Assembly: GCF_004293625.1 (NCBI RefSeq)
Contig: NZ_CP033040.1
Coordinates: forward strand, 1,240,001-1,304,000
Direction: 5' to 3'
DNA: 64,000 nt
DNA from: Thiomicrorhabdus indica
Lineage (GTDB): Bacteria > Pseudomonadota > Gammaproteobacteria > Thiomicrospirales > Thiomicrospiraceae
In this document: positions 19,401-38,893 of the stretch, piece after piece
Layout: each line of letters starts with the position of its first letter
How positions within the stretch are numbered: position 1 is the first letter of the stretch
Position numbers and translations under genes: made by a program
Notes under the pieces: model-generated
The model's input: the letters and a program-made list of their open reading frames with translations, nothing else
Database searches by the model: none
What the model was told of the DNA's origin: nothing

Positions 19401-22062
19401 GACCGCGCAAAATGCTTGGATTTCCAAAACGGGTGAAGAGCATATATTTGACTGGTCGAATGCGGTGGTAAAAAAACAAGACGGTTCTGTAGATTACATC
19501 TTCACAATTGGTATTGACATCACTGAAAATGAACGTCAAAAACAAGAAGCGCAAACAATCTTTAATACGACCAATGACGGATTGATTATTTTGGACTCAG
19601 AAGGGCGCTTGATTCATTCAAATGTGGCGTACCTCAATATGTTAAATCTCACTGTTGATGAGCTAATTGGACAGCAGTTTTTAGAAAATGTTGCTGAGAG
19701 TGACCGGGCTCATGTTGAGACAATATTCGTTGAAGTTTATAAAACGGAACATGTTAAAAACGTTGAGTTTACAAGTCTAGTCAATGGTAGCGATTGTGGC
19801 GTTAAACTCGGAGCATCGGTGACTTTGATGCCTGACAAGTCACATTTATTGGTGAGCATGAAAGATATTTCGGAAGAAATTGAGCTGCGAGAAGCTTTAA
19901 TCCAAGCAAAAGTGAATGCAGAAAATGCAGCGCGTTCAAAAAGTGAATTTTTGGCGAATATGAGTCATGAAATTCGTACGCCATTAAATGGAATTATTGG
20001 TTTAAATAATCTGATTCTTGAAACGCATTTGACTGAGCGCCAAAAAGATTATTTGCAAAAATCGCTTCAATCGTCAAAGGCACTACTAGGCGTTATTAAT
20101 GATGTGTTGGATTACTCTAAAATTGAAGCTGGAAAAATGGAGTTGTCAACACACGAATTATCGATTGAACATATGTTGCGTTCGGTGACGGATTTATTTG
20201 AATACGCCGTGCTTGAAAAAAATCTCGAGTTGCATCTATCAATTGATTCAAAACTCCCTAGAAAAGTTATAGGTGACGGGCTTCGTTTGACACAAATATT
20301 GAATAATTTGGTCGGTAATGCTGTGAAGTTTACTGAATCAGGTGATGTGACGATTTATGCAAAATTGATGTCGGAAAACGATGATCAAATTGAATTGTGT
20401 TTTTCGGTTGAGGATACCGGAATAGGAATGGATGAAGAAGAGTGTCGTAAGTTATTTCAAGCATTTTCTCAGACAGATACTTCTAATACACGAAAATATG
20501 GTGGTACCGGTCTAGGTTTGGTCATTACTAAGCAGTTGGTCGAACTGATGGGGGGAGTTATTCAAGTCGACAGTCAAAAAGGGAAGGGAAGCCATTTTTG
20601 GTTCACTGTCATGCTTGAAAAAACGGATTCAACAGAGCTCAAGCCAAGGAATCTTGACGATTATTATCGGGGAAGTTTTTTAGTTGTTGACGATAATGAG
20701 ATTGAGCGTCAAATGATCGGTGATATTCTTAAGTCATGGAAAATACGCCCAATTCTCTGCTCAAACGGTTTTGAAGCCTTGGAGTATGCGAGAAAGCACC
20801 CTGTTGACTATTTATTAGTTGATTGGCAGATGCCGGAAATTGATGGCTTAGATGTAATTCAACAAATGCATTTGGAACATCAAGGAGGCTTCCCAAAGGT
20901 CATTATGATCTCAGCGATGTTGAAAGAAGATTTAACTAAAAAAGCCATTGAACGTGATATTCAACCGGATCAAATTTTACACAAACCGGTCTCCCCCTCG
21001 ACTCTTATGGAAGCTTTGTTTAATGACATTCAACCTAATTTGGTGTCTGATGCTTTAGGCGAAGACAAACTTAAATTCAAGGGTAATATTCTGGTTGCTG
21101 AAGACAATGAGATTAACCAAATTGTGATTCGTGATTTACTTAATTCAATGGGCTTAGAGGTTACGGTGGTCGAAAATGGTGAGCTTGCCACTCAACGAGT
21201 TCAGTCTGAGAACTTTGACCTTGTTTTAATGGATTTGCAAATGCCGGTGATGGATGGCTTTAAGGCAACTAAAATTATTCGTCAAATTAATAGCAGTATA
21301 CCGGTTGTTGCGCTGAGTGCAGCGGTCATGGAGCAAGATCGTTTGCAAACGCAGAGCGCAGGTATGAATGCACATATCGCCAAACCGATTGATTTGCAAG
21401 AGCTACAAACCGTTTTAGCAGACTATTTGCCTTATGAAACTCAAAAAGTCGTCCAAAACCAGCACTCAGATTTTTCGGTTTATGGTATTGATTTAGACCG
21501 GCTCCAGAAAATTTACCCGGATGATCAATCAGTTAAACGAATTCTTAAAATGTTTGAGAAAAACTTGGAGGAATTTGAGCAAAAGGTTCGCTTGGTGAAT
21601 GACGATTTTTCGTTGTTAAAATCGTTGGTTCACTCATTAAAAGGGGTGAGTGGTAATGTTTCTGCAACGGAAATACACCTTTTATCTAAGCAAATCGATT
21701 TGGCGTTAAAAGAGCTTAAAGTTAGTCAAGTTCAGGGTGGCAACTTGCAAATTAAAACCTTGATGGATAGGTTAATGATTGAGATTAAGCAGTGCAAACT
21801 TGCACTGGGTAGGTTAGAGTTTGAAGAGAAGGTTCTGGACAATGCAAGAACGTCCAGTTCGGAGCTGAAGGCTGTCATTGATGCCGTATATGTCAAACTG
21901 GTGGCTAATGAATTTATTGAAGATGAGATAAGAGAACCGCTTTATCAAGGAATAGAGCCTATTGCATCAGAGGTTGAAGTTGCTTCGCTTCGCGAAGCGA
22001 TTGAATTGTTTGACTTCTCGAAAGCAGTTGAAACCCTAGATGATATAAAAAAACGTTTATAG
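16474..22062 (+). CDS. Giant hybrid sensor histidine kinase with nine PAS domains
   Basis: An 1862-residue phosphorelay protein without evident membrane segments, so probably cytoplasmic. By eye there are nine PAS/PAC units at about 10-125, 139-256, 270-386, 406-510, 533-638, 653-768, 783-890, 906-1018 and 1028-1136, many ending in the PAC pattern (G)xxxDITE. Then HisKA with H1165 (NMSHEIRTPLNG), HATPase (NLVGNAVKFTESG, DTGIGMD, GGTGLGL; about 1265-1385), REC1 with D1450, REC2 with D1587 (LMDLQMPVMDG) and HPt with H1720 (HSLKGVSGN). All catalytic residues look intact. PAS2 and PAS3 are close to each other and suggest recent duplication. Two ACCGGCCGGA variants (16991, 18476) lie in PAS domains. 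A diguanylate cyclase gene follows after 17 bp, probably its output. Confidence 0.93.
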   Translation: MSPTFISEKLFDKGPVVVFVWQNQPDWPVEFVSQNIQVIYGYHPDAYLSGERRYADQIHPDDIEKTGQEVALASKNLECESFTHEPYRYKHQDGHYCWVKDFTQIIRNQEGDITHYVGYLIDITQEVNLQQESKKLQERLDLAWSATNDGLWDWKPISDSVYFSPQWKKIIGYRPDEFENKVQGFFDAIHPDDQAVVDACLKRHFSDPDNIPYEVDFRMRCKDASYKWIRALGKATLDESGQVIRMTGAHTDITETHIAQTKLKESEKRWRFAVDGSGDGLWDWNLQTNEVYFSDRWKGMLGFEPEEITASLEEWERRVHPDDLSKTYEDINACLNQEVDVYRNEHRVLCKNGDYKWVLDRGVVMEWSEDNHPLRMIGTHTDIDLEKKQSQSILQMERRYKSMFKDHHAIMLLIEPETGQIIDANKSAETFYGYSHEEFQSLTIHKINQLSSHEIAENRQKAMLQAQHKFVFPHRLKNGEIRDVEVSASPIDMDQGKLIFAIIRDMTEEKANEKRITKLAKQVEEERLRYKALMEYSPDGIFVMDFDGYIHECNPSAAEMLGYSMDEMLALNVCDWEVMVKKEDILPMIREIGRTPVSFESQHRRKDGSIYDTSIIAVRIKIEGHDYLYASVRDISEQKTLQHLLLESNKKLSNLADNVPGVIYTFLYRPDGSSCFPYASDHIYDIYGVRPLDVKEDAAKVFAVIHPEDLNTISKTIADSAENLTMWEVEYRVNHPTKGEIWVKELSKPEKQADGGTLWYGYIVDITQSKNAQIEIENAKQYFETLLESASDGIHILDSEGKLIACSQSFAEQIGYEKNELKGMSFAKWDSGVISEDSEVIAHAMSGLPKTFETVFERKDGSVLDVEINAKWVELDGEEYVYASSRDITEAKQLKNEIIRERNFISTIVDNANAVIAVIQPNGTMSKLNYFGQQFTGYSEKEISCEPYFWLRFLPTELLSKVKQVIENASNGGLFKTAQNAWISKTGEEHIFDWSNAVVKKQDGSVDYIFTIGIDITENERQKQEAQTIFNTTNDGLIILDSEGRLIHSNVAYLNMLNLTVDELIGQQFLENVAESDRAHVETIFVEVYKTEHVKNVEFTSLVNGSDCGVKLGASVTLMPDKSHLLVSMKDISEEIELREALIQAKVNAENAARSKSEFLANMSHEIRTPLNGIIGLNNLILETHLTERQKDYLQKSLQSSKALLGVINDVLDYSKIEAGKMELSTHELSIEHMLRSVTDLFEYAVLEKNLELHLSIDSKLPRKVIGDGLRLTQILNNLVGNAVKFTESGDVTIYAKLMSENDDQIELCFSVEDTGIGMDEEECRKLFQAFSQTDTSNTRKYGGTGLGLVITKQLVELMGGVIQVDSQKGKGSHFWFTVMLEKTDSTELKPRNLDDYYRGSFLVVDDNEIERQMIGDILKSWKIRPILCSNGFEALEYARKHPVDYLLVDWQMPEIDGLDVIQQMHLEHQGGFPKVIMISAMLKEDLTKKAIERDIQPDQILHKPVSPSTLMEALFNDIQPNLVSDALGEDKLKFKGNILVAEDNEINQIVIRDLLNSMGLEVTVVENGELATQRVQSENFDLVLMDLQMPVMDGFKATKIIRQINSSIPVVALSAAVMEQDRLQTQSAGMNAHIAKPIDLQELQTVLADYLPYETQKVVQNQHSDFSVYGIDLDRLQKIYPDDQSVKRILKMFEKNLEEFEQKVRLVNDDFSLLKSLVHSLKGVSGNVSATEIHLLSKQIDLALKELKVSQVQGGNLQIKTLMDRLMIEIKQCKLALGRLEFEEKVLDNARTSSSELKAVIDAVYVKLVANEFIEDEIREPLYQGIEPIASEVEVASLREAIELFDFSKAVETLDDIKKRL

Positions 22063-22079
22063 GAAAGTTTTTGAACGAC

Positions 22080-23351
22080 ATGAATCAACAAAATAGCCGG
22101 CCATCGATTTTGATAGTGGATGATGAACCTATCAATTTACAACGAGCGGCACAAACTTTACACAAACAATATCAATTGCATTTGGCTAAAAGTGGTTTGG
22201 AAGCCTTGGAGTTTTTGGAATTTGGTCAAGTTGACTTAATTCTTCTGGATATCGACATGCCTGAAATGGATGGTTTTGAAGTCGCAACGCGTTTAAAGGA
22301 AAAGAATGCGACGGCCAGTATTCCACTGATTTTTTTAACCGGCGATGATAGCGAAGAGACGATTGAAAAAGCATTTGGTTTAGGGGTTGTCGATTATGTA
22401 ACCAAGCCCTTTCGTGACAAAGAACTAAATGCTCGTATTAAAAATCGAATTGAAACTGAGCTTCTTAAGCAAAAGCTTCATGCAATGAACACTTCTCAGC
22501 AACATCTGCTGGAAATCATTAATGACTATGTTTTTTATTTGAAGACCGATTTAACTGGAATTATCACAAAGGTCAGTTCTGCTTTTGTTGAAACTTTGGG
22601 ATGTGATGAAAAGGCATTACTCAATCAGAGTATTCAAATTTTGAAATCAGGCCATACCCCAAGTTCAGTTTATTCAAAATTATGGGAGACACTTAAGAAA
22701 AACCAGGTTTTTAGTGATGAAATAGAAAACCGAAATTTTAAAGGTGGCACGAACTGGTATCGAGTTTTGATTAAGCCAGATATTGAAGATAATCAATTGG
22801 TAGGATATGTAGCTTTTTATACCAACATTGATAGTGAGGTTGGCTATCAACAGCAAGCCATATCTGATTACTTAACTGGGTTAGTAAATCGTGCGAAATT
22901 TGAGCAGGAAATTACTCAAGAGATTTATCGAGCGAATCGATACGATACGCCATTATCATTATTAATGATTGACATTGATCATTTTAAACGTGTGAATGAC
23001 ACTTATGGTCATGATGTCGGTGATAGTGTATTGGTCGAGTTTAGTCAACTTCTCAAAAAACATACTCGCCAATCGGATATTTGCGCTCGTTGGGGTGGGG
23101 AAGAGTTTGTGATTATGTGCCCGAACACAAATCTGGAATCGGCAATTAGCCTTGCAGAGTTGTTAAGAAAGACTATTTCAACGAATGTGTTTAAAACTGT
23201 CGGTCACTGTACGGCGAGTTTTGGTGTTGTACAACTATTAAAGGATTCCGATTTGAAGACGTTATTCAGTGATGTTGATCAATCTTTGTACAAAGCTAAA
23301 AATCATGGTCGCGATTGCGTGAGATCCATTCAGACCGACGAGTGTTTGTGA
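22080..23351 (+). CDS. Response regulator diguanylate cyclase (REC-PAS-GGDEF)
   Basis: A 423-residue protein that should make cyclic di-GMP in response to phosphorylation. REC domain about 10-125 (ILIVDDEP, phospho-acceptor in LILLDIDMPEMDG, conserved Lys in VTKPF), a PAS domain about 140-260, and a GGDEF domain to the end. The active site is intact: RWGGEEF, and an inhibitory I-site RQSD lies five residues ahead of it. The REC domain and the 17-bp spacing make it the likely target of the upstream nine-PAS hybrid kinase. A TTG at 22071 is possible, but AGGAAAG at 22061-22067 fits the ATG at 22080. Confidence 0.92.
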   Translation: MNQQNSRPSILIVDDEPINLQRAAQTLHKQYQLHLAKSGLEALEFLEFGQVDLILLDIDMPEMDGFEVATRLKEKNATASIPLIFLTGDDSEETIEKAFGLGVVDYVTKPFRDKELNARIKNRIETELLKQKLHAMNTSQQHLLEIINDYVFYLKTDLTGIITKVSSAFVETLGCDEKALLNQSIQILKSGHTPSSVYSKLWETLKKNQVFSDEIENRNFKGGTNWYRVLIKPDIEDNQLVGYVAFYTNIDSEVGYQQQAISDYLTGLVNRAKFEQEITQEIYRANRYDTPLSLLMIDIDHFKRVNDTYGHDVGDSVLVEFSQLLKKHTRQSDICARWGGEEFVIMCPNTNLESAISLAELLRKTISTNVFKTVGHCTASFGVVQLLKDSDLKTLFSDVDQSLYKAKNHGRDCVRSIQTDECL

Positions 23352-24073: not shown

Positions 24074-24507
24074 TTGAAAAGGCCTTTAACGCAATCCAGA
24101 AAAGTTTTAAATATCAAATTAAGGTGGTATTTGAAGTTATAGGTATTCCTTGTAACCCATTGATTACTATTGAAATGTAAGCACGGATCATGAATGTTAC
24201 CGGCCGGTATTTTATCAAACATTCCGCATATCTAATCTTGATCTGCTAGGGTTTTTACATCGATGCTCCAATTTATTTGTTCCCTTCATTTTTGTTGCTA
24301 TAAATAGCCAGTTAAGTTCAATTATTTATTGACATAAGAGATTGGTTATATTTTAATTCACCCAAATTCGTTATTACTTAAAAGATATATCGAAATTATT
24401 ATTATCTAATTAATAAAAAATATCAGTGAATTTTAGATTGATTTGTTTCTTTACGAATCAATTATTAATAATTTTCGATATGTATATAAATAGATAAAGA
24501 GATGCTT
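24074..24507. promoter_or_regulatory. AT-rich control region upstream of the TonB operon
   Basis: Spacer of about 430 bp between divergent genes. It holds a dispersed palindrome at 24199-24208. Closer to the operon are nested inverted repeats: an imperfect pair with ATATCGAAA cores (24387-24404 and 24462-24481) and, inside, ATTGATT/AATCAAT (24437-24462). I looked for a Fur box and found no good match, so the regulator is unknown. Confidence 0.5.
24199..24208. repeat. ACCGGCCGGT copy upstream of the TonB operon
   Basis: Perfect copy preceded by ATGTT, in the divergent spacer, about 300 bp before the receptor gene. Confidence 0.9.
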
Positions 24508-26535
24508 ATGAAAAATGTTTACCACCGTAAAAAAACTTTACCGGCCGCTATTCAGACAGCTTTTTTGTCATGGGCTGTTCTACAAACGGCATCGGCAGAC
24601 ACGAATGTGTTTACGCTTGGGCAGATTCAAGTCATTGAAGAAAAGCAAGCACCTTACAGCGCAATTGAAGTGATGGAAGTTCAAACTCAAGGCCGCAGTA
24701 ATGTCGGGGAAGCCATTGCCAAAGTACCCGGAGTGACGCTGCAGATCGGTGGAAGACGTGCTGAAACTCGTGCAAATATCCGCGGTTTTGATTCTCGACA
24801 AATTACTCTCAACCTTGATGGGATTCCAATTTATGTACCTTATGATGGCAATATTGATTTAAGTCGTTTTCAGTTAGCGGATTTAAGTCAAATTGAAGTC
24901 AGCAAGTCGCTTGGTTCACTTCTTGAAGGCCCAAATAATATGGGTGGGTCAATCAATTTAGTCACTCGCAAGCCATCGAAGTCGTTTGAAGGTCAAGTCG
25001 ATTTAAGTTTTGAGGGGGGGGATAGCGGTCTTTTTAAACATTCTCAAAATGTGCAAGTGGGTTCTGTTTTAAATGAACACTTTTATTTCCAAGCCGGAGT
25101 TTCAGCATTTGAATCCGATGATTTTCCAATGTCTGATGATTTTACCGCTACCGAAAACAATGGCAAGGTTTACCAAACAAAGGGAAATCGCCTGCGCTCT
25201 GGAAGCGAAAACCAAAGTGCGAATCTTAAATTGGGTTTTACACCCAATAGCACGGATGAGTACAGTTTGAGTTATTACCGAATCAACGGATCAAAAGAGT
25301 CAAGTCCTTACGCTGGAGATGCGGATACCGTGCGTTACTGGGATTGGCCACAGTGGGATAAACAGAGTGTTTATTATGTTGGTTTCACTCAATTGGGCAG
25401 TGGTGAATCCGCAGGCTATCTAAAATCTCGTTTGTATTACGATACTTTTGATAACGCGCTTAACTCTTATGACGATGACAGATATTCATCCGTGACACGA
25501 GGGTATGCCTTTCGTTCTCAATACAATGATTTCAGTACTGGAGGTTCAGTCGAAGCAGGCATGCCGTTTGCCAACCATTTTGTGAAGGCGGCCGCTTTTG
25601 TGAAAAAAGATCAGCATAAAGAACGTGACAATGATACTGACATTCAATCTGTTGATAATCGGTGGCGTACGTTTGAAGGCGAGACATTTGCTCTGGGTCT
25701 AGAAGATAAAATTACACTCTCCGATACCACAAACCTCACGCTTGGTTATCGCTATGACCGTTATGAACTGACCAAAACAGATGATAATGATGTGGCAACA
25801 GCGCCACAAGGGTCTCAAAATGAGCACAACTGGCAGGCTAAAGTTCAACACAAAATAGGTGAACAACAACTGCTAGCCGGTGTCTCGCTAAAATCTCGCT
25901 TCCCAAATATGAAAGATCAAGTGTCTTATCGATTAGGGCGTGCTATTCCAAACCTTGAGCTTCAAGCCGAAAAAGCTTTGCACTATGAAGTCGGTTTAAA
26001 AGGCAAAATCTCGCAGGTTCATTACCAAGCGAATTTATTCTACTCTGACATTAAAGATGCGATAGAAACCATTGCCGTTTCTAGTAATCAATGTGGTGGC
26101 ACGACATGTGACCAGAACCAAAATGTTGGTTCAGCCACATCTAAAGGGCTTGAAATTGAGGCTCATACTTCCCTAACGAACACCCTAGACTTAGGCATGA
26201 GTTATGCACACCTGATTCGTGATTTGGCTGATGACGAGATTGTTGCCACCTATGCACCTAAACAGATTGTGAACCTTAATCTTGACTGGTATCCAAACAA
26301 AGCATGGCAGTTAGGTGTTGATGGTCATTATCAATCGGATAGTCAAACGCGTTTTGATGGTTCTCGACCAACCGATGGGTTTAGTCTTTGGGATTTAAGA
26401 GCACACTATCAAGTGACTAAATCTTTGCAAACTAACTTTATGGTTAAAAATCTGTTCGACAAAAACTATGAAATTGCCGAAGGTGATCCAATGCCAGGTC
26501 GAACTTTGTGGGCCAACCTAAATTATCAATTCTAA
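24508..26535 (+). CDS. TonB-dependent outer membrane receptor (first of two)
   Basis: A 675-residue receptor. Signal peptide about 1-30, then the plug domain (GEAIAKVPGVTLQIGGRR, NIRGFDSRQITLNLDGIPI, SLGSLLEGPNNMGGSINLVTRKP) and a 22-strand barrel ending in an aromatic residue (LWANLNYQF), as required for outer membrane insertion. AAAGAG places the start at the ATG at 24508; an ATG two codons earlier is too close to it. It is the first gene of a six-gene uptake operon. The ligand is unknown; metal chelates, siderophores or corrinoids are typical for the FecBCD-type transporter encoded downstream. Confidence 0.92.
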   Translation: MKNVYHRKKTLPAAIQTAFLSWAVLQTASADTNVFTLGQIQVIEEKQAPYSAIEVMEVQTQGRSNVGEAIAKVPGVTLQIGGRRAETRANIRGFDSRQITLNLDGIPIYVPYDGNIDLSRFQLADLSQIEVSKSLGSLLEGPNNMGGSINLVTRKPSKSFEGQVDLSFEGGDSGLFKHSQNVQVGSVLNEHFYFQAGVSAFESDDFPMSDDFTATENNGKVYQTKGNRLRSGSENQSANLKLGFTPNSTDEYSLSYYRINGSKESSPYAGDADTVRYWDWPQWDKQSVYYVGFTQLGSGESAGYLKSRLYYDTFDNALNSYDDDRYSSVTRGYAFRSQYNDFSTGGSVEAGMPFANHFVKAAAFVKKDQHKERDNDTDIQSVDNRWRTFEGETFALGLEDKITLSDTTNLTLGYRYDRYELTKTDDNDVATAPQGSQNEHNWQAKVQHKIGEQQLLAGVSLKSRFPNMKDQVSYRLGRAIPNLELQAEKALHYEVGLKGKISQVHYQANLFYSDIKDAIETIAVSSNQCGGTTCDQNQNVGSATSKGLEIEAHTSLTNTLDLGMSYAHLIRDLADDEIVATYAPKQIVNLNLDWYPNKAWQLGVDGHYQSDSQTRFDGSRPTDGFSLWDLRAHYQVTKSLQTNFMVKNLFDKNYEIAEGDPMPGRTLWANLNYQF

Positions 26536-26558
26536 GCTTCAATTTAAAAGAATCCTAA

Positions 26559-28514
26559 ATGAAAACACTGCAAACTTCTTTATTTCTCGCTTTTATTGCA
26601 CCAGTGACATTGCCTGTTTATGCAGATCAACTGTTGGATCAAGTGAGTGTAACGACCGGTCAAGGTATTCAGGCAGAAAATGTTTATTCTCAACCTAAAA
26701 GCTTTACAAATAACAGTCAGACGTTTAAACGTGAGGATTTCCAAAAGCTGCCAATTACGAATGCCTATGAAATGCTGGATTATGCAACCGGCGCTTTTAT
26801 TCAAACCCAAGGACGCAAGTCTCCTTACTTTGCTAGCATTCGTGCAGGGTCCAATTTGGGAATTATTATTGATGGGGCTTTTTTGCCACCGCCTGCAGTT
26901 TCGAAAGTTTTAATGCAACTGCCTGTCAGTGCGATTGAGTCGATGAAAATCGTCCGTGATGCGAGTGCCCTGAACTTGGGGCCTTTAACTTCCATTATTG
27001 GCCCAATGACCAGCTCACGAACAGAGGGGTTTATTGTCATTAAAACGTTGAGTGCTTTTAAGCAGCCTAAAAGCGAACTGCATGCAAAAGTTGGAACTTA
27101 TGATCAATTGGAAGTTGATGGCACAACCGCTTATCAATTCAATGACAAAGTTGCCGGCCGGTTAGTTTTAGCTCATCAACAAAAGCAAGGACCGGATGAT
27201 TACTACAACGACTATCAACGCAATGTCGGACTTTGGAAATTAGAAGGCTTTCACGATCAATTTGATTGGCAAATTAATTTCTTTCACAGTGATGGTGAGC
27301 AGTCATTACAACGTGGTTTAGCGACCTCCGGAGTATCGGACGCCAAATGGAATTATGATTCAATGGTGGTTCGAATGATTAATGGGCAAGCGGGTTATTA
27401 CTGGGACAGCAACAACACTACCGCAGTGCGATTTGCACACTCTCAGAGTGATGCTGATTTAAATCAATACAGCCACTCTAACCCGATGGCTTACAAGCTT
27501 GAAGTTACGGAAGAAAACTTTAGTAATTTTGACTTAAGTCATGCGATTCAAAGTGAATGGTTTGAGGGGGAAAATCTTCTACGTTTTGGCTATAACTGGA
27601 TGCATTATGACAATCCTACTGGAATGCTTTATTACCCAGGTTTTGCGCGAGAAGAGCAAATTCATTCTCTATATCTACAAAATGAATTTCAACGCGATGT
27701 GTGGAGTATGGATTTTGGCTTGCGTAGCGATACACGACAGATTGATAAAGGCTATGAGCAAATTGGTAAGCAACGTCGCATTATTGAAAACGTTGAGCTT
27801 GACTCGTTGATAACAGCCGCGTTTGGAGGATCTTATCAATTTTCACAAAATGATTTGCTCAGTTTACGCACGCTTTACACCGAGCAACAGCCTGTCAGTG
27901 TTTACACCAGCAACAACGAGCAGCTTCAGCAGGAACAGCGCATTCGTTCTGAACTGGGTTGGAACCATCAATGGTTTCAAAACTCTACCGGCCGGTTAGA
28001 AACCACCATTACGGCGTTTCATGAAAAACTTAAAAATGGGGCTTATGTCGCCAGTCAAATTCCCGATCCTGAAGAGGCCGATAGTTTCATTAATGTTTAT
28101 GACAATGCAAGTTGGCGCAATCGCGGAGTGGAGCTTGAAATCAAAGGGCGAATGGCTGAGTTTGGCTATGAGTTAGCTTTGAGTAAAGTCAAGCCTGGCG
28201 ACACCCCAAGTGGTGTGATGAATGTCCCCGAACGCTTAATCAAAGCTCGACTGTATTACAACACACCAAGTTGGCAGTTTGATCTCGGTGCACGTTCTAT
28301 GAGTGATTATCTGTCTGCCAATAAAGCTGGTTCTGGTATTGCGGGTGATTTTGTCACCTATGATGCTGCGATTGGCTACAAAACCAAGTCGGATGACTTA
28401 AATCATCATTGGTTATTTTCAATAAAAAACCTGACTGATAAAAAGTACGAGACCATTTACGGTTTTCCAAGTGAAGGTATTAACTATGGGGTCGATTATC
28501 GTGTCCAATTTTAA
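26559..28514 (+). CDS. TonB-dependent outer membrane receptor (second of two)
   Basis: A 651-residue receptor-like protein with a signal peptide (about 1-22), a shorter, divergent plug (PITNAYEMLDYATGAFIQTQGR, AGSNLGIIIDGAFLPP) and a beta-barrel finishing with YRVQF. It is 24 bp after the first receptor gene. The two are clearly different proteins rather than a recent duplication. Two receptors ahead of one ABC importer suggest two ligand forms or two steps of import. A perfect dispersed palindrome (27987-27996) and one variant (27153-27162) lie in the barrel region, read as Thr-Gly-Arg and Ala-Gly-Arg. Confidence 0.88.
   Translation: MKTLQTSLFLAFIAPVTLPVYADQLLDQVSVTTGQGIQAENVYSQPKSFTNNSQTFKREDFQKLPITNAYEMLDYATGAFIQTQGRKSPYFASIRAGSNLGIIIDGAFLPPPAVSKVLMQLPVSAIESMKIVRDASALNLGPLTSIIGPMTSSRTEGFIVIKTLSAFKQPKSELHAKVGTYDQLEVDGTTAYQFNDKVAGRLVLAHQQKQGPDDYYNDYQRNVGLWKLEGFHDQFDWQINFFHSDGEQSLQRGLATSGVSDAKWNYDSMVVRMINGQAGYYWDSNNTTAVRFAHSQSDADLNQYSHSNPMAYKLEVTEENFSNFDLSHAIQSEWFEGENLLRFGYNWMHYDNPTGMLYYPGFAREEQIHSLYLQNEFQRDVWSMDFGLRSDTRQIDKGYEQIGKQRRIIENVELDSLITAAFGGSYQFSQNDLLSLRTLYTEQQPVSVYTSNNEQLQQEQRIRSELGWNHQWFQNSTGRLETTITAFHEKLKNGAYVASQIPDPEEADSFINVYDNASWRNRGVELEIKGRMAEFGYELALSKVKPGDTPSGVMNVPERLIKARLYYNTPSWQFDLGARSMSDYLSANKAGSGIAGDFVTYDAAIGYKTKSDDLNHHWLFSIKNLTDKKYETIYGFPSEGINYGVDYRVQF
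27987..27996. repeat. ACCGGCCGGT copy in the second receptor gene
   Basis: Perfect copy read as Thr-Gly-Arg, in a predicted loop-strand boundary. Confidence 0.85.
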
Positions 28515-28524
28515 GACTTACCGT

Positions 28525-29568
28525 ATGCGAATTTTGCCAAAAAACTGGATGAAAAGTGTTGGGTTAACTGTTTTATTGATGGTTCCAAACTTGAGCTATG
28601 CACAGTCTTGCATGACGAATCATGACCCAGAGAGAGTTTATGGAGCCAATCCGATTGTTACTTATATGTTGGTGGCAATGGCTCCTGAAAAAATGATTGG
28701 TTGGAACTTTCCTGTCTCACCTCAAGCAAAAGAAATTTTCCCGGCCGGTGTTTTTGAGAAACCGGTGATTGGTGGTTGGTTTGGACAAGGTCGAACGCCA
28801 AATATGGAAGTGTTGTTAGCCAATCATCCTGATTTGATTGTGATGTCTGGTGCAATGGTCAATCCAAAACGGCAGGAAATGCTTCAAAAACTGGGAGTAC
28901 CGGTGTGTGATCTTAAGCTTGATACGTTGAATGATTACCCGAGTGATTTTCGTGACTTAGGTAATTGGTTAGGAAAGGCTGAGCGTGGTGAGCTTCTCGC
29001 CACAAAAATGGAGGCCCTTATTGCTCAACAAATGCAACTGAAAGAAGTGTTGGCTAAACGCAAGGTTTCACTTAAAACCGTGTATTACGCCCAAGACCCA
29101 AATGGTTTAGCGACAGAGTGTCGTGGCTCAATTCATGCGGAAACGATTCCTTGGGCTGGCGCTGTTAACCCTCATGTTTGTCCTGCCGATCAAGGAAAGT
29201 ATTCACGTTATGGCAAGGTCGCAATCAATATTGAAACCTTACTTAAATACAATCCCGATGCGATTGTGACTCAGGAAAAGGCTTTTTATGAGAAGTTGGC
29301 GTCCTTGCCAAGCTGGCAAGCTTTAAAAGCGGTAAAGAACAATCAAGTTTTTTTTGCTCCGCAAACGCCATTTCGTTGGCTAGATCGTCCCCCATCTTTT
29401 ATGCGGATTTTAGCTGCACAGTGGTTAATGCAAAAACTTTATCCTAATGTGCCTGAAATCGCTGCTTTAGACACGGTTAAAACGACGCAAGAATTTTTTC
29501 AGGACTTTTTTCAAGTTATTTTGAGCAAACAGCAAGCTGAACAGATTTTACAAGGAGGCACGCTATGA
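28525..29568 (+). CDS. Periplasmic substrate-binding protein of a FecBCD-type importer
   Basis: A 347-residue protein with a signal peptide (KSVGLTVLLMVPNLSYAQS) and the two-lobe helical-backbone architecture of periplasmic metal-chelate binding proteins (PBP family of FecB/BtuF). Segments include PEKMIGWNF, HPDLIVMSGAMVNP, and PFRWLDRPPSFMRILAAQWL, a motif found in several such proteins near the ligand site. The frame overlaps the second receptor gene upstream; the ATG at 28525 lies after that stop and is preferred over 28471, although its Shine-Dalgarno is poor. The stop overlaps the next start (ATGA), so translation is coupled. A CCGGCCGG variant is read as PAG near residue 75. Confidence 0.85.
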   Translation: MRILPKNWMKSVGLTVLLMVPNLSYAQSCMTNHDPERVYGANPIVTYMLVAMAPEKMIGWNFPVSPQAKEIFPAGVFEKPVIGGWFGQGRTPNMEVLLANHPDLIVMSGAMVNPKRQEMLQKLGVPVCDLKLDTLNDYPSDFRDLGNWLGKAERGELLATKMEALIAQQMQLKEVLAKRKVSLKTVYYAQDPNGLATECRGSIHAETIPWAGAVNPHVCPADQGKYSRYGKVAINIETLLKYNPDAIVTQEKAFYEKLASLPSWQALKAVKNNQVFFAPQTPFRWLDRPPSFMRILAAQWLMQKLYPNVPEIAALDTVKTTQEFFQDFFQVILSKQQAEQILQGGTL

Positions 29569-30596
29569 CCACCAATCCGAAACTGGGTGCCATGTTGCAT
29601 ATCACGCCAGAACTAGGGCAAACACCAACGCAAACATATCAAAGTTTTACTCATCTGGTTAAAGAGCTTGATCAAATGGGCTTTGATAATGCTTGGGTCA
29701 CGGAACATCATTTTAATGACATGAGCCTGACGCCTTCGCCTTTACATCTTATGGGGCATTTTTTAGCGAAAACCGAGCAGATTAGTATTGGATCAGCGGC
29801 ACTTTTAGTAGGATTTCATAATCCTATTGAAGTGGCCGAAAGTTTGGCTGTTTTAGACGCTCTTTACCCTGAAAGGGTGTTTTGTGGATTTGCGAAAGGC
29901 GGTCCATTTGAATCACAAAACAGTGCCTTTAAAGCCGATAAAGATTTAAGCCGTGCACGTATGATTGAGGCTGTACCTGCAATGTTGGAGCTGTGGCAAG
30001 ATCAGACTGAGTCAACGCATCATGGTGAGCATTATCAATGGAATAATGTCAATTTACAGCCTAATTGTGGGTTGCAAAACTCACGTTTATTTATTGCCTC
30101 AGGCGATGAACAGACAATTGAAATGGCGGTTAAAAATAACCTCGGTTTAATGGCGGCTCAATTCTGGGATATGGCCAAAATACATCAACAAATTTCGCAT
30201 TATCAAAAAGTGGCACAAACGGTTTTTAAGCAGCCGAAAAAACCGAACATGATGGCGGCTCGCGGTCTGTTTGTTCACCAAAATTCAGCGGTGGCTAAAC
30301 AAAGTGCATTGGAGCATATCCGTAGCTTTCGAGAACAAAAAGCGAAACATTGGGGCAAGACGCCAGGACCTATGGCAAATCTTGATCCAGAAGAAATGTT
30401 GTCCAGAATGCTTTGCGGAACCCCTGAAGAAGTGGCTGAAAAAGTGTACAGCCTTTTACAAAACGGCGTGACGCATTTGGCCTTAAACCCATTGACTCAA
30501 AACCATTCAGTGCGTTGTGATCAATTGCATTGGTTCTATGAGGAGGTTTGGGGGCAGTTTTTAAATAAAGATACCAAACAGAGACAATCCGCTTAA
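29565..30596 (+). CDS. Luciferase-like FMN-dependent monooxygenase (LLM class)
   Basis: A 343-residue TIM-barrel flavin enzyme of the bacterial luciferase family. Visible motifs are AWVTEHHFNDMSL (about residues 43-56), SIGSAALLVGFHNPIEVAE (about 84-102), ERVFCGFAKGGPF and FIASGDEQTIEMA. Known relatives use reduced FMN and oxygen to attack sulfonates, amines, aldehydes and chelators. It is embedded in an uptake operon: its ATG overlaps the binding-protein stop, a strong AAGGAGG precedes it, and its stop overlaps the permease start (TAATG). A role in freeing an imported ligand from its carrier is an attractive inference but unproven. No signal peptide, hence cytoplasmic. Confidence 0.88.
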   Translation: MTTNPKLGAMLHITPELGQTPTQTYQSFTHLVKELDQMGFDNAWVTEHHFNDMSLTPSPLHLMGHFLAKTEQISIGSAALLVGFHNPIEVAESLAVLDALYPERVFCGFAKGGPFESQNSAFKADKDLSRARMIEAVPAMLELWQDQTESTHHGEHYQWNNVNLQPNCGLQNSRLFIASGDEQTIEMAVKNNLGLMAAQFWDMAKIHQQISHYQKVAQTVFKQPKKPNMMAARGLFVHQNSAVAKQSALEHIRSFREQKAKHWGKTPGPMANLDPEEMLSRMLCGTPEEVAEKVYSLLQNGVTHLALNPLTQNHSVRCDQLHWFYEEVWGQFLNKDTKQRQSA

Positions 30597-31633
30597 TGTT
30601 TCGTTTCATGACAAATAGCTTATCGCTTTCTCCAAGCATTGTATTGGTGTTGCTGAGTTTCTTATTGGGCGCGAGTGCTCTTTTTTCATTAAGTCTCGGG
30701 CGTTTTGATTTTGCCCCTTTAGGTAGTATGCAAGAGCTGTTTATTCACTGGGGATGGCTTGAAGGTGAAACTAATCCAATGATGACCAGCATTTTATTGG
30801 ATGTGCGCCTGCCCAGAATTCTGGCTGCTATTCTAATTGGGGCCGCTTTAGCCATCAGTGGTGCCGCTTTCCAAGCACTTTTTATGAACCCTTTAGTTTC
30901 TCCAGGAATTTTAGGGGTGTTATCAGGTGCTGCGTTTGGAGCTTCCTTAGGAATTTTGTTATCCGATGAAATTTGGGTTATGCAGCTGTTGACGTTTGTT
31001 TTTGGGCTTTTAGCTGTTGCGATTGCGTTGTTGTTGGCTAAGGGCGAACTCAAACAAAATATGATCATTTTAGTCTTGGGTGGAATGATAACCGGCGCTT
31101 TGTTTGGTGCTTTTTTATCAATCATTAAATATGTTGCTGATCCATACAGCAAACTGCCAGCGATTACCTATTGGCTAATGGGATCGCTTGCCAATGTGAA
31201 TGGTGAACTGTTGTATTGGTTAGCGCCGTTTGTGCTGACCGGAATTGCCATCTTAACTATGCAAGGGCATGTCTTAAATGCATTGAGTTTAGGTGATGAT
31301 GAGGCTAAAACACTGGGTATTTCGGTAGAGAAAAAAAGAATGCTGGTGATTGTGGTTGCCACATTTTTAAGTGCGGTGACGGTCACGCTTGGTGGAATGA
31401 TTGGTTGGGTCGGGTTGGTGATTCCTCATATTGTTCGTCTGTTGTTTGGGGCTGATAACCGTTTGCTCCTACCTGCTTCGGCGCTATTAGGTGCAATTTA
31501 TTTATTGTGGGTAGATAACCTTGCTCGCATGGTCACCAGTATTGAAATTCCAATTGGTATTCTTACCGCATTAATCGGTTTGCCGGTATTCGCTTGGGCA
31601 CTTAAAAATGCCAAAAAAGGTTGGCATTCATAA
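30596..31633 (+). CDS. FecCD-family ABC transporter permease
   Basis: A 345-residue inner membrane permease with about ten hydrophobic segments and the family motifs RLPRILAAILIGAALAISGAAFQ and GGMIGWVGLVIPHIVRLLFG, close to those of BtuC/FecD/FhuB. It forms the channel of the importer, presumably as a homodimer because only one permease gene is present. Start codon overlaps the stop of the flavin enzyme gene. The ATPase gene follows after 13 bp. Confidence 0.93.
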   Translation: MFRFMTNSLSLSPSIVLVLLSFLLGASALFSLSLGRFDFAPLGSMQELFIHWGWLEGETNPMMTSILLDVRLPRILAAILIGAALAISGAAFQALFMNPLVSPGILGVLSGAAFGASLGILLSDEIWVMQLLTFVFGLLAVAIALLLAKGELKQNMIILVLGGMITGALFGAFLSIIKYVADPYSKLPAITYWLMGSLANVNGELLYWLAPFVLTGIAILTMQGHVLNALSLGDDEAKTLGISVEKKRMLVIVVATFLSAVTVTLGGMIGWVGLVIPHIVRLLFGADNRLLLPASALLGAIYLLWVDNLARMVTSIEIPIGILTALIGLPVFAWALKNAKKGWHS

Positions 31634-31646
31634 TTTGGGAAAAAAT

Positions 31647-32405
31647 ATGAACAAGACAGGTTTGCTAATGACGCAAGGCCTTGCTGCAAAGCATCAAAAC
31701 ACCATGATTTTTAGAGAGGTTGACTTACAGATTTTTTCTGGAGAGGTGATTGCTCTTTTGGGGCAGAATGGTTGTGGTAAAACGACATTATTACGCACGC
31801 TTTTGGGACTGCATCCAAAAGCAGCCGGCGAAGTTTATTTCGATCATATCTCAAGTTCTAAAGTTTCAACAAAAGAGCGAGCAAAGAGGGTCAGTTACGT
31901 TCCTCAGGTGCATAAAATGGCATTTGGTTTTCCGGTGATAGATATGGTGCTTATGGCAACTTATGGAGAGAGGGCTCCGTGGCTAAAAGCGAATGCTGAA
32001 CATTTTGATATGGCTTGGGAAGCGCTGAAATGGATGGGAATTGCCGATTTAGCTCATCGGCCTTATACCGAACTTTCCGGTGGGCAAAGACAAATGGTAC
32101 TAATTGCTCGTGCATTTGCACAAAATACCCCAATGATTTTCATGGATGAACCCACAAATGGCTTGGACTTTGGAAATCAGATCAAGCTTCTTGAAAAAAT
32201 ACATGCACTCAAAGCCTCTGGTAAAACGGTGTTATTTACTACGCATCATCCTGAGCATGCAATTCATACCGCTTGTCGTGCTTTGACAATGAAAAACGGC
32301 TCAATTCTTAGTCAAGGATGTCCGAAAGAAACTTTAGATAAGTCTATGATTCAGAACTTATATCAATTGAATGAACAACAACTCAAAAATCATCACTACG
32401 CATAA
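31647..32405 (+). CDS. ABC transporter ATP-binding protein (FecE/BtuD type)
   Basis: A 252-residue ATPase energising the importer encoded upstream. Walker A LLGQNGCGKTTLL, signature LSGGQRQMV, Walker B IFMDEPTNGLD and the switch His in LFTTHHPEHA are all present. The ORF extends upstream to 31608, overlapping the permease, but the ATG at 31647 gives the normal N-terminus and follows GGGA. A strong terminator follows 100 bp later and ends the six-gene operon. Confidence 0.93.
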   Translation: MNKTGLLMTQGLAAKHQNTMIFREVDLQIFSGEVIALLGQNGCGKTTLLRTLLGLHPKAAGEVYFDHISSSKVSTKERAKRVSYVPQVHKMAFGFPVIDMVLMATYGERAPWLKANAEHFDMAWEALKWMGIADLAHRPYTELSGGQRQMVLIARAFAQNTPMIFMDEPTNGLDFGNQIKLLEKIHALKASGKTVLFTTHHPEHAIHTACRALTMKNGSILSQGCPKETLDKSMIQNLYQLNEQQLKNHHYA

Positions 32406-32507
32406 AACTAGATGTTCTGTGACTGAAAATCGGTATTCTTGGTTACCGTCTATTGAATTGTTAAAGCTTTAGTTGTGCGAATAGTTATTTCCTCTCGCCA
32501 CACAGTA

Positions 32508-32535
32508 AAAAGCCGCAGTCGTAGCTGCGGCTTTT
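32508..32535. terminator. Bidirectional rho-independent terminator
   Basis: Arms AAAAGCCGCAG and CTGCGGCTTTT with a 6-nt loop, between the convergent ABC-ATPase and nuclease genes. Confidence 0.92.
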
Positions 32536-32607: not shown

Positions 32608-35307
32608 TTAATGACGATTTGCCCATGGTACAAATTTTGAGAACCAAGAATCAGAACCGGGTTTTTCATTGACTTCAATAGATGTGACGCTGCTTTGGTC
32701 ATCGAAGATTAAAACAGAGTGTTCAATACCATTAATGTCAAAAGCATAAGGTTCAGTCTTCTTGCGCGTTTCCAATGTTACTTCACAGATACCTTGATCA
32801 TTGGTTGTACAAGACGCTTGAACTGCATCACGGCGCATTGACCATGAACCTTGAACATTCGCATTTTCAACGACTTCACCCAGATCATTTTCAATTTGGA
32901 ATGTGACAGTAATGAGGCGTTTGCTAAAGCCAGGGCCTATCCATTCAACATCCGTTTCCATATTGGAAACGATAATATTTTTGGCAGAAGGTTCTAGATC
33001 TAAACCGATGATTACTGGATCATGGTCGGACGCACGATATGGATCTGAGTTATAAAAAGTAATGTCTTGATTGTCTGACTTATACTCTAAGTTGTAATCT
33101 AGAGCGCGAGGTTCGTCAGCATTGATATGCCATTCTGTGACACCGCTTACTTGAGACGTTAAGCTTTCAGAAGATAAGGCATGATCTAAATATCCAGCTT
33201 GTCCGTAAAAGACATAGGAGTAGTTCATGTCTGATGTTGACATGCTGTCAATCAAATCCTTATAACCAGCGCCTTTAATTGCTGAGATAGGGTCTTCTTT
33301 CGCATAAGCGTTTAAATCACCAATAATTAAAGTATCAGAATCACCACTTTGTGTTGGATCTGTCGATAACCAATCAGCCAATGCTTGAGCAGCTTTAGTA
33401 CGAGTTTGGTTACAGTTTCCTTGTCCATCATTCATGTCTGGATCACCAAGGTTATCACAGCTTGAACCTTTCGATTTTAGGTGATTGACTGAAACTGTTA
33501 CGATCCCATTAGTTGCTTTTTCTACAAATGTTTGGGCAAGTGCAGGACGGTTTTTATCATCAATAAATTCAGGGTTAACACTGCTATCCAAAATTGCAGA
33601 TTTCCCACTCAATTCAACTTTATCAGTTCTATAGATAAAGCCTACCGCAATTTCATCTGTACCAATTTTAGAGACACCAGGATTTACGAAATCATAAACT
33701 TCGTCCATCATTTCGGCATTCAAAGCTTTTACAAGGCTTGCAATGGCACTGAACTCTCCGTAGCCATCATTTTCAATCTCCATTAGACCGATGATATCCA
33801 CATCCATAGCAAGGATTGCTTTGACGATTTTTTCTTGTTGGCGTTCAAACTCTTCAAAATTGTCTGCGCCTCGGCTCGTAGGGAAGCCACCGCCTTGTCC
33901 ATCACCGTTGAAGTAATTTAAGACATTGAAGCTGGCAATTTTTAAAGAGCCACCAATTGATTCTGGCTGGAGTGTTCGTAGATTCTGACTTTCAGTTTGA
34001 GGTGTCACAGTAGGTTGGATTTGATAATTTCCATAGCTGTAATTTACAACACCTTGAAGGCTTGTCACCATATCGCCGGAACGAAGTGTGTTGTAAGCAG
34101 ATAATTCAGGAGATGGATAAATCACAGGGTCTGGGTTTTGACGACTATTGTTATCATCAACCAAAATACGATTTAAATCATTTGCTTGCTGCATAGCAAG
34201 TGCATCATTTCCAGGGCTGACAACATTGGTTGGTACTTGCAGACGACCACCAGAGGAAAGCCAGAATTGACCGTAACGTGCAAGGTCATAGTTTTCAGTA
34301 ACAGTTAGATCCTGTGCAAAGCTGACCAGCATCCCTTCATATCTTTCCATGAAGTCAGTCGAAGCAAATGGTAAGGTAACCTCTGTAGGTGTTACCTCGT
34401 TTCCACCGTCAACAATGCTGATACTTTCTATATTTTTAAGTTGTGTCAGATCATAGTATTCAGCGACTTGAGCAGTCAGTTGAACTCTATCACCTATCTC
34501 CGGTAGTTCAGACAGGTTCGGTGCATACACAAAAATACCTTCTGAAGACAACTCCGAATCGTCGTAATCAAAAGCTTCTTCCTGAATATTAAAACCGTTC
34601 AGGTCATCCAAACGTGCTGTAACGATAGCTTCTACACTGACAGTCTGGCCACTTAGCGGAGAGTTGCTTCCTTCACCTTGAATCTCGTGAATTTTAACGA
34701 GTTGAGTAGGAGAAGGAGGGGGTTCATTATCGCCATCATTACTTGATCCAAAATTCCCTAGATCTGCAACAGTATCCTGGGCATAACCCGTCCACAGAAA
34801 AGGAGGATCAAACGCATCAAATGGATTTGTGTCAGCAATCAGTTGAGCACGTTGTAAGGTATTATCCTTGGTACTGGTATCACCTGTACCCCATTCAGAA
34901 CCAGGATCAAAACCAACTTGACCAATGGAATCGATAACAATGCCATTGTTTGTTAAAACAATGGCATCATCACCATTAAAGTTAATTGAACTGGTTTCTA
35001 AATCTGTTTGAGCAAGAATGTCTGAGCTTGAACCTGGATTTGCCAAGACGAAAACGGCACCATTAGCCAAGCTACCGTTTAGGTCAATGCTGTAGCTCGG
35101 TGAATGACTTCCATTATGGTAAGCCTCGACTTTATAAGTCGACAAATCAATATCGATTCCTGTGTCGTTATAAATTTCGATAGCCTTGTTAAAGCTGCTA
35201 CCTTCAATATATTCACTGAAAAGTAAATCTGGTACTGCCGAAGCAGTCGTGGATATTGCAGACAGACATAAGGTTGCCAACAATGTTTTCTTAAAATTCG
35301 GGTACAT
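32608..35307 (-). CDS. ExeM/NucH-type extracellular nuclease
   Basis: An 899-residue secreted protein: signal peptide (ends about residue 24, TTASA), a lamin-tail domain (about 26-150, VPDLLFSEYIEGSSFNKAIEI), an OB-like nuclease-associated domain (about 205-300), an endonuclease/exonuclease/phosphatase domain (about 455-775: ASFNVLNYF, GLMEIEND, VNHLKSKG, IGDLNAYAKEDP, SDHDPVI) and a C-terminal immunoglobulin-like region. The catalytic set is complete, so it should degrade extracellular DNA. Unlike many ExeM proteins, no GlyGly-CTERM-like sorting tail is visible; it ends VPWANRH. Oddly, the sequence just before the ATG reads CCTCCTC, anti-Shine-Dalgarno-like. It contains no dispersed palindrome. 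Confidence 0.9.
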   Translation of the reverse strand: MYPNFKKTLLATLCLSAISTTASAVPDLLFSEYIEGSSFNKAIEIYNDTGIDIDLSTYKVEAYHNGSHSPSYSIDLNGSLANGAVFVLANPGSSSDILAQTDLETSSINFNGDDAIVLTNNGIVIDSIGQVGFDPGSEWGTGDTSTKDNTLQRAQLIADTNPFDAFDPPFLWTGYAQDTVADLGNFGSSNDGDNEPPPSPTQLVKIHEIQGEGSNSPLSGQTVSVEAIVTARLDDLNGFNIQEEAFDYDDSELSSEGIFVYAPNLSELPEIGDRVQLTAQVAEYYDLTQLKNIESISIVDGGNEVTPTEVTLPFASTDFMERYEGMLVSFAQDLTVTENYDLARYGQFWLSSGGRLQVPTNVVSPGNDALAMQQANDLNRILVDDNNSRQNPDPVIYPSPELSAYNTLRSGDMVTSLQGVVNYSYGNYQIQPTVTPQTESQNLRTLQPESIGGSLKIASFNVLNYFNGDGQGGGFPTSRGADNFEEFERQQEKIVKAILAMDVDIIGLMEIENDGYGEFSAIASLVKALNAEMMDEVYDFVNPGVSKIGTDEIAVGFIYRTDKVELSGKSAILDSSVNPEFIDDKNRPALAQTFVEKATNGIVTVSVNHLKSKGSSCDNLGDPDMNDGQGNCNQTRTKAAQALADWLSTDPTQSGDSDTLIIGDLNAYAKEDPISAIKGAGYKDLIDSMSTSDMNYSYVFYGQAGYLDHALSSESLTSQVSGVTEWHINADEPRALDYNLEYKSDNQDITFYNSDPYRASDHDPVIIGLDLEPSAKNIIVSNMETDVEWIGPGFSKRLITVTFQIENDLGEVVENANVQGSWSMRRDAVQASCTTNDQGICEVTLETRKKTEPYAFDINGIEHSVLIFDDQSSVTSIEVNEKPGSDSWFSKFVPWANRH

Positions 35308-38854: not shown

Positions 38855-38893
38855 ACCGGCCGGTAGCTTTCTGTGCAATCTCTACCGGCCGGT
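38855..38893. terminator. Paired ACCGGCCGGT palindromes forming a hairpin
   Basis: Perfect copies at 38855-38864 and 38884-38893, extended to 12-bp arms (ACCGGCCGGTAG / CTACCGGCCGGT) around a 15-nt loop, in the convergent gap between rnfH and bamE. The arms and loop have the same size as the ilvA pair. A terminator role is inferred. Confidence 0.6.

Follow-up and report, generated by a model that had tools for sequence, protein, structure and literature searches.

Gene content and conservation of the operon

The stretch of DNA analysed here (the window) comprises 64 kb inside the 2.83-Mb genome of Thiomicrorhabdus indica, labelled G000 in the following; its subject is an operon of six plus-strand genes that code, in this order, for two TonB-dependent outer-membrane receptors (R1 and R2), a periplasmic substrate-binding protein (SBP), a flavin enzyme of the luciferase type (LLM), a single FecCD permease and the ATPase of an ATP-binding cassette (ABC) transporter. 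The order proposed in a preliminary description of the sequence was confirmed: all six genes are present in the list of open reading frames and each is supported by a Pfam match. R1 (24502..26535; a second possible ATG at 24508 is the start assumed previously) consists of plug plus barrel (PF07715 and PF00593); R2 (26559..28514), an accessory receptor, matches the plug only (PF07715); the SBP (about 28525..29568) is of TroA/FecB type (PF01497, Peripla_BP_2). The LLM (29565..30596) matches PF00296 (Bac_luciferase) with 181.8 bits at a cut-off of 27.9 bits and thus belongs to the Luciferase-like superfamily; the permease (30596..31633) matches PF01032 with 273.1 bits, and the ATPase (about 31647..32405, alternative ATG at 31608) matches PF00005 (ABC_tran). 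The gene overlaps on both sides of LLM, ATGA with the SBP gene and TAATG with the permease gene, are exact in the window, and the receptors are, as had been stated, no duplicates but very divergent from each other (best BLASTP piece with 29/98 identities and 28.9 bits).

The operon is real, conserved and specialised. When 62 genomes of the family were queried with the SBP, 12 strong orthologues (E-value of 1.7e-121 or better, the window's own genome included) and one weak match were obtained. In all 12 orthologous operons, LLM was placed by tblastn between SBP and permease with R1 ahead of them, and permease and ATPase are closely adjacent in most; R2 is present in only six of the 12 and in the island of a more distant genome (G206, see below). 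The expected conservation of the gene order therefore holds for the position of LLM between binding protein and permease but not for the complete set of six. In one operon genome (G050; L030, L091), R1, R2 and modD are each broken over two frames or more, as is modD in another (G042; L093), by either decay or assembly error.

With a FecCD permease (PF01032) and a TroA-fold binding protein (PF01497), the operon has the layout of a MolABC-type importer; with TonB receptors, SBP, FecCD permease and ATPase in one operon, it has that of TonB-dependent chelate uptake. Compared with solved structures, the SBP gave profile scores of 255.2 bits with 4pag (Sulfurospirillum), 75.2 bits with 4ovk and 52.4 bits with MolA (HI_1472, 3psa), the latter being the third-best sequence match and, by fold, the third distinct protein at rank 5 of the list; the identity of 17% in the fold alignment makes this a weak match, and the SBP appears, as judged from its sequence, to be distantly related to MolA. 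The structure models of SBP and LLM, which were built on 3-sequence alignments (pTM of 0.67 and 0.63, mean pLDDT of 64.8 and 58.3, respectively), are of modest quality and as such adequate for assigning the fold family and inadequate for the pocket. The MolABC system of Haemophilus influenzae (HI1470-HI1472) resembles the window operon in its TroA-fold binding protein tied to molybdate and in HI1470/71, which we take to be a FecCD-type importer; the window operon differs by the addition of TonB receptors (one or two in the relatives), the embedded LLM and the ModE boxes.

Predicted ModE control and linkage to molybdenum genes

A symmetric 24-base matrix for ModE boxes was trained on the modA promoters (105 bases each) of 20 relatives without the operon (one of which, G049, has ModD nevertheless); longer stretches had led the motif run to the conserved terminal part of the modE reading frame instead. 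The matrix converged on CGATATGTACTTAAGTACATATCG, which resembles the ModE consensus ATCGCTATATA-N6-TATATAACGAT printed in the accessible part of PMC2700814. Sites above 11 bits were present in 15 of the 20 training promoters. Applied to Escherichia coli K-12, the matrix had its best site in 3.5 kb directly before modA, at what is presumably the ModE operator, with a score of only 4.2 bits.

Within the window, only two sites exceed 10 bits and both are located upstream of R1: box 1 (24369..24392; 20.4 bits, the highest-scoring site of the 64 kb) lies directly 3' of a sigma-70-like promoter (24329..24357, plus strand; TTGACA-N17-TTTAAT, 11 of 12 consensus bases as read directly), and box 2 (24476..24499; 14.6 bits) lies immediately 5' of the R1 start codon. 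The place of box 1 just 3' of the promoter is a usual one for a repressor. The R1 promoters of all 12 operons scored 12.9 to 21.8 bits, values that were reached by none of 300 shuffles of the respective 380-base stretch. Six of 108 control promoters (taken from 11 of the loci) scored 12 bits or more, namely the porin-modA promoter and those of modD of G015, a SUOX-like gene of G055, the ATPase genes of G055 and G040, which are parts of the system under study, and a gene of G013 that is divergent from R1 and shares its intergenic region. Among the other TonB-receptor loci of G000, seven of the 11 found gave peaks of 12.1 bits or below (six of them 7.2 bits or below), and the modE promoters exceeded 10 bits in three of six cases. 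A strict box pattern had no match anywhere in the G000 genome; a second pattern, which was derived from four known sites of G000 and is circular for those four, produced three further one-mismatch matches in the genome (one of them the soxA promoter) versus one with the reversed control. G000 possesses a modE gene (267 amino acids, with HTH_1 and TOBE domains) upstream of modABC, so that both the box at the promoter and the gene of the regulator, by which membership in a ModE regulon is predicted from sequence, are present. The ModABC system with ModE shares the predicted regulator and metal with the operon but differs from it in the families of permease and binding protein and in lacking a TonB receptor.

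The genomic neighbourhood in the relatives points in the same direction. In T. marina, genes for an outer-membrane porin, modA, modB, modD and modC run straight into R1 (ModA and ModD above the cut-offs; ModB with 179.1 of 182.6 bits and ModC with 143.8 of 285.05 bits below them), and the same second mod set occurs elsewhere in the genome of G000, also behind a ModE box. ModB of this second type (174 to 179 bits) was present, among the matches listed, in five genomes, all of them operon-positive. The porin gene that heads the second modABDC set of G000 (L087:2044-3393; G000:C1, about 2220.5-2221.9 kb) may encode a molybdate porin; its T. marina homologue matches Alginate_exp. ModD, a relative of quinolinate phosphoribosyltransferase (172 bits with the nadC model), was found in 12 of the 62 family genomes (scores of at least 176 bits, with the copy of G050, whose frame is broken, counted in addition). 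Ten of these 12 also have the operon; two genomes have the operon only, two ModD only and 48 neither (Fisher test 3.8e-8, phylogeny ignored), and the overlap spans three genera of the family. Where permease and ATPase are separated, the gap contains molbindin (G055), molbindin and modD (G015), or a sulfur cluster and a molbindin-type TOBE gene that precedes the separated ATPase (G040); the molbindins of G055 and G015 match TIGR00638 above the cut-off. In G013 the operon includes, and in G055 it closely follows, a gene for a small protein that has Oxidored_molyb as its single domain (L034:6339-6935, L033:9735-10307).

Outside the family, homologous SBP at 1e-20 or better were detected in 11 genomes of a sample comprising 369 genomes of the class and 398 of the phylum, and molybdenum genes lie near the SBP gene in five of these loci. 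In G206, a member of another family, modBC, LLM, permease, ATPase, R2, SBP, R1, modD (211.6 bits, above the cut-off) and a two-TOBE molbindin-like gene are assembled within 18 kb, LLM being next to the permease; the same island has a second gene of the SBP family and, by eye, another large TonB-receptor-like open reading frame (L084:11233-14521). ModE adjoins R1 in G225; G722 has MOT1, a ModE-like piece and a TupB-like permease below its cut-off (169.6 of 320 bits for the tungstate-type permease of L105), G561 has ModE-like pieces only, one of them with an HTH_1 match, and G575 has ModD (389.6 bits).

On plasmids, where seven regions out of 90 records were inspected, two regions (E. coli, Shinella) contain genes for molybdenum transport or for the cofactor, three do not and one is unannotated; the operon of the Shinella plasmid sits among moeA, a TOBE gene and modA, and the Azospirillum region adjoins msrP, which we take to be a molybdoenzyme gene. 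The E. coli plasmid pMS20655A (L122:5872-12298) carries the row SBP, permease, ATPase, methyltransferase, modD and TonB receptor, an operon presumably named Eit and in part annotated as iron ABC transport, the cargo of which may be molybdenum. It has in common with the window operon the homologous SBP, permease and ATPase together with modD and a TonB receptor in a row, and is distinguished by the methyltransferase, the absence of LLM and an SBP of 28.6% identity. ModD and TonB receptors are both increased under N2 fixation in Zymomonas, and no link of modD in nif clusters to an operon with TonB receptors and LLM is drawn in the accessible parts of the respective papers (PMC4999443, PMC8600466, PMC3916325).

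The ligand, considered not predictable in the preliminary description, is narrowed by the ModE boxes, by molbindin, ModD and ModABC as neighbours and by the MolA-related SBP, and we hold with high confidence that the imported metal is molybdenum or tungsten. Of the options named earlier, the metal chelate thereby survives as one possible form of the carried molybdenum, and an organosulfur compound is not supported as cargo. Corrinoid uptake was rejected: the BtuB models gave 104.2 of 599.7 and 94.6 of 836 bits on R1, and the scores for BtuC (208.9 of 334 bits), BtuF (24.5 of 234 bits) and BtuD (108.2 of 281 bits) are likewise below the cut-offs; no cobalamin riboswitch was detected in the window at the gathering score, a feature that not every B12 operon has. 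The weak SBP match of the family sample (G041, L035) is positioned in a separate locus beside a receptor-like and a CobO-like gene (by eye), where no ModE-box score above 6.8 occurs within 14 kb; this is probably a vitamin B12 locus. Iron uptake was not supported either, as the best family scores remained below the curated cut-offs (no scan for Fur sites was made).

The flavin enzyme and the surroundings of the operon

LLM is tightly linked to the importer. PF00296 was found at 1e-10 in 13 of the 62 family genomes: each of the 12 operon genomes has one copy, which is located at the operon, and a partial match in G027 is the sole one among the 50 operon-negative genomes. Among the 369 genomes drawn from the class, an LLM profile at 1e-45 retrieved only G000, G042 and G206. 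The pairwise identities of LLM and of SBP across the 12 operons correlate at 0.95, which fits genes that are inherited together. The G206 enzyme is 33% identical to that of the window and retains stretches that are absent from the LLM of Bartonella; the latter is encoded beside a homologous importer but is too dissimilar to count as an orthologue (26% over 196 residues). A search of plasmids for LLM at 1e-30 gave no match.

Within its superfamily, the enzyme resembles the group of MsnO8 and bacterial luciferase in fold and sequence: the nearest solved chains are 8cbb, 4us5, 7bip and 1brl, matches were obtained with luciferases, MsnO8 and RslO1, and its EHHF stretch recurs in 8cbb and 1brl. It differs from that group in being tied to a metal importer and in scoring 118.4 bits with the MsnO8 family model TIGR03558, below the cut-off of 166.95 bits, so that it is not assigned to this family. 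Since no export signal was seen by eye, LLM is taken to be cytosolic. The earlier proposal, in which the ligand is processed after import by the flavin enzyme encoded in the operon, withstood one of the two refuting conditions named for it, an absence of LLM from orthologous operons: the gene is present in all 12, and these genomes have no other PF00296 match at 1e-10. The release of the ligand is a step that we infer.

As to the flanking sequences, the operon is followed by an inverted repeat with A and T flanks (32507..32535, by eye), probably a two-way terminator between the operon and a convergent minus-strand gene for an extracellular nuclease of the ExeM/NucH family (32608-35307). Upstream, positions 16474-23351 code for a sensor-kinase-like protein of 1862 residues with many PAS-type repeats and then for a receiver-GGDEF-type protein (by eye). 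The palindrome ACCGGCCGGT occurs in 26 copies in the window versus 0.03 expected (e.g. 24199-24208, 27987-27996 and 38855-38864), one copy being located within the R2 gene; outside the window, it is also present in the vicinity of modA and of the porin gene.

Nature of the cargo and biological meaning

The best explanation, to which we attribute a probability of roughly 0.6, is a ModE-repressed, TonB-dependent importer for molybdenum (or tungsten) in a form other than free molybdate, with LLM as the enzyme that releases the metal. When molybdate is sufficient, ModE would bind the boxes at 24369 and 24476 and keep the operon shut. Under molybdenum starvation, R1 (and R2) would bring across the outer membrane a molybdenum compound too large or chemically too different for porins and ModABC, and the MolA-related SBP would pass it to the FecCD-type importer; LLM, produced in step with the importer, would then attack the ligand shell in the cytoplasm using reduced flavin, presumably FMN, and oxygen, and the molybdate thus freed would go to molbindin and cofactor synthesis. 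A cargo other than free molybdate is suggested because the genomes already have ModABC-type genes and because larger ligands are usually imported by receptors that work together with a FecCD importer. As ModB is already present in the operon genomes, the need for the operon must come from scarcity or from another form of molybdenum; a replacement of ModABC by the operon was rejected, since all 12 operon genomes retain ModB above the cut-off. Free molybdate may nonetheless be the cargo, because importers of the MolA type can carry molybdate itself according to the accessible part of PMC7759655, and the title of 3psa also ties MolA to the bare anion.

Several observations weigh against this explanation. 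No box is present in five of the 20 training modA promoters or in that of G025, and two operon genomes have no ModD. ModB above the cut-off is a property of 60 of the 62 family genomes, all 12 operon genomes included (among the matches listed, G016 and G020 have weak ModB matches only). Beyond the family, no molybdenum gene was found by the references used in the stretch examined of six of the 11 loci, so that the wider SBP family may have other cargoes, and LLM was not seen in 10 of the 11 (tblastn, 1e-5), which implies that import as such does not need this enzyme. The Pfam scan revealed no flavin reductase gene within the operon, and the best family scores of R1, though below cut-off, are those of haemoglobin/transferrin and siderophore receptors.

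It may tentatively be proposed that the cargo is a molybdophore, that is, molybdate on an organic chelator of own or foreign origin (catecholate, hydroxamate or pyridine carboxylate) which LLM would break oxidatively. Chelate uptake systems are built of TonB receptors and a FecCD importer, chelate-binding proteins are included in the fold match list of the SBP, and the importer is also associated with other small-molecule enzymes, namely ModD and, in some homologous operons, the methyltransferase. A precedent for the chemistry is given by the EDTA and NTA monooxygenases, which belong to the same fold family as LLM, break chelators oxidatively and work with a chelate importer; their importers, however, represent a different ABC type and are not known to involve TonB receptors or ModE. 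No chelator-synthesis gene was recognised among the translations of the window and of the relatives' loci, at which no search for such a gene was aimed, and the carriage of bare molybdate by MolA-type importers argues against an organic chelator as well.

A second candidate arises from sulfur metabolism. Because its genome has SoxB, the host is regarded as a sulfur oxidiser of the Thiomicrorhabdus type; SoxB was positive in G000, G206 and G283 among 12 genomes searched, and RuBisCO-like open reading frames were seen by eye in G206 (L119). A cluster of genes for a sigma-54 activator, soxA, soxX, a SoxH-like metallohydrolase (MBL), a dsrE-like gene and a rhodanese adjoins molybdenum genes in five of the 12 operon genomes (G000, G040, G050, G025 and G015; the rhodanese was not seen in G040), and its position in G000 is behind the second mod set, at a great distance from the window operon. 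In all five genomes the soxA promoter has a ModE-like box (11.1 to 22.7 bits), with scores to which none of the 300 shuffles of each came up, and the sigma-54 activator gene has such a box in G000 and not in the other three tested. These palindromes before soxA (L161:2680-6766, L164, L165, L163, L091) place sulfur genes in the predicted molybdenum regulon.

Sulfide turns molybdate into thiomolybdate (PMC10390477, accessible part), and very little is known about the bioavailability of thiomolybdate, for which yet-unknown mechanisms may exist (PMC3440940, accessible part). As a special case of the best explanation, MoO4-nSn ions might be imported through the receptors and the MolA-related transporter, and LLM, together with the SoxAX, DsrE and rhodanese of the predicted regulon, might strip the sulfur oxidatively to yield molybdate. 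This appears doubtful. Apart from G206, the carriers of LLM that were found are all members of the Thiomicrorhabdus family, with SoxB in both G000 and G206, and the soxA boxes and the position of the cluster would be accounted for; yet the cluster adjoins molybdenum genes in only five of the 12 operon genomes, the sox genes could be under ModE control for other reasons, and a TonB system would not usually carry so small an anion. Moreover, G283 is SoxB positive and its homologous locus has no LLM, and to our knowledge no LLM acts on metal-bound sulfide.

That LLM is unrelated to the ligand and constitutes a molybdenum-sparing flavin substitute for a molybdenum-dependent oxidoreductase, induced with the importer at molybdenum shortage, is considered unlikely. 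The predicted ModE control would suit a molybdenum-free substitute equally, and soxAX in the predicted regulon is readable as a change of sulfur metabolism under shortage. However, a mere member of the regulon need not keep the place that LLM keeps, its gene overlapping those of SBP and permease in the window, standing between them throughout the 12 operons and next to the permease in G206; nor would the absence of PF00296 at 1e-10 from 49 of 50 operon-negative relatives be expected to favor such a role. That the operon merely takes up an iron siderophore or cobalamin and contains its flavin gene by chance is highly improbable. In favour of this view are the iron ABC transport annotation of homologous plasmid genes and the best family scores, which R1 had with haemoglobin/transferrin and siderophore receptors, the SBP with IsdE, the permease with BtuC and the ATPase with FecE, all of them under the curated cut-offs. 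Against it stand the ModE boxes and molybdenum neighbours, the window's lack of a cobalamin riboswitch and the tight linkage of LLM to the operon.

Iron, B12, nickel, copper and lanthanides are taken up by known TonB-dependent systems. A TonB-dependent molybdenum system with a flavin enzyme was not found in a literature search that covered few subscription papers, and neither thiomolybdate as an imported nutrient nor the removal of its sulfur by a luciferase-fold enzyme is described in the accessible literature searched. The parts of the operon belong to known families; what is new is that TonB receptors, a MolA-related importer and an invariably present flavin enzyme come together under a predicted ModE switch. 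For further study, the operon offers a defined set of genes with molybdenum shortage as the predicted inducer, as well as a binding protein and an enzyme, and it makes some FecCD/TonB operons labelled as iron transport, such as the modD-bearing one of the E. coli plasmid, candidates for molybdenum uptake. If thiomolybdate were indeed the cargo, a new chemistry of the luciferase fold and a new nutrient form at sulfide-rich sites would be implied. The operon very probably serves molybdenum starvation, and it may be the way in which sulfur oxidisers get molybdenum in sulfide-rich water.

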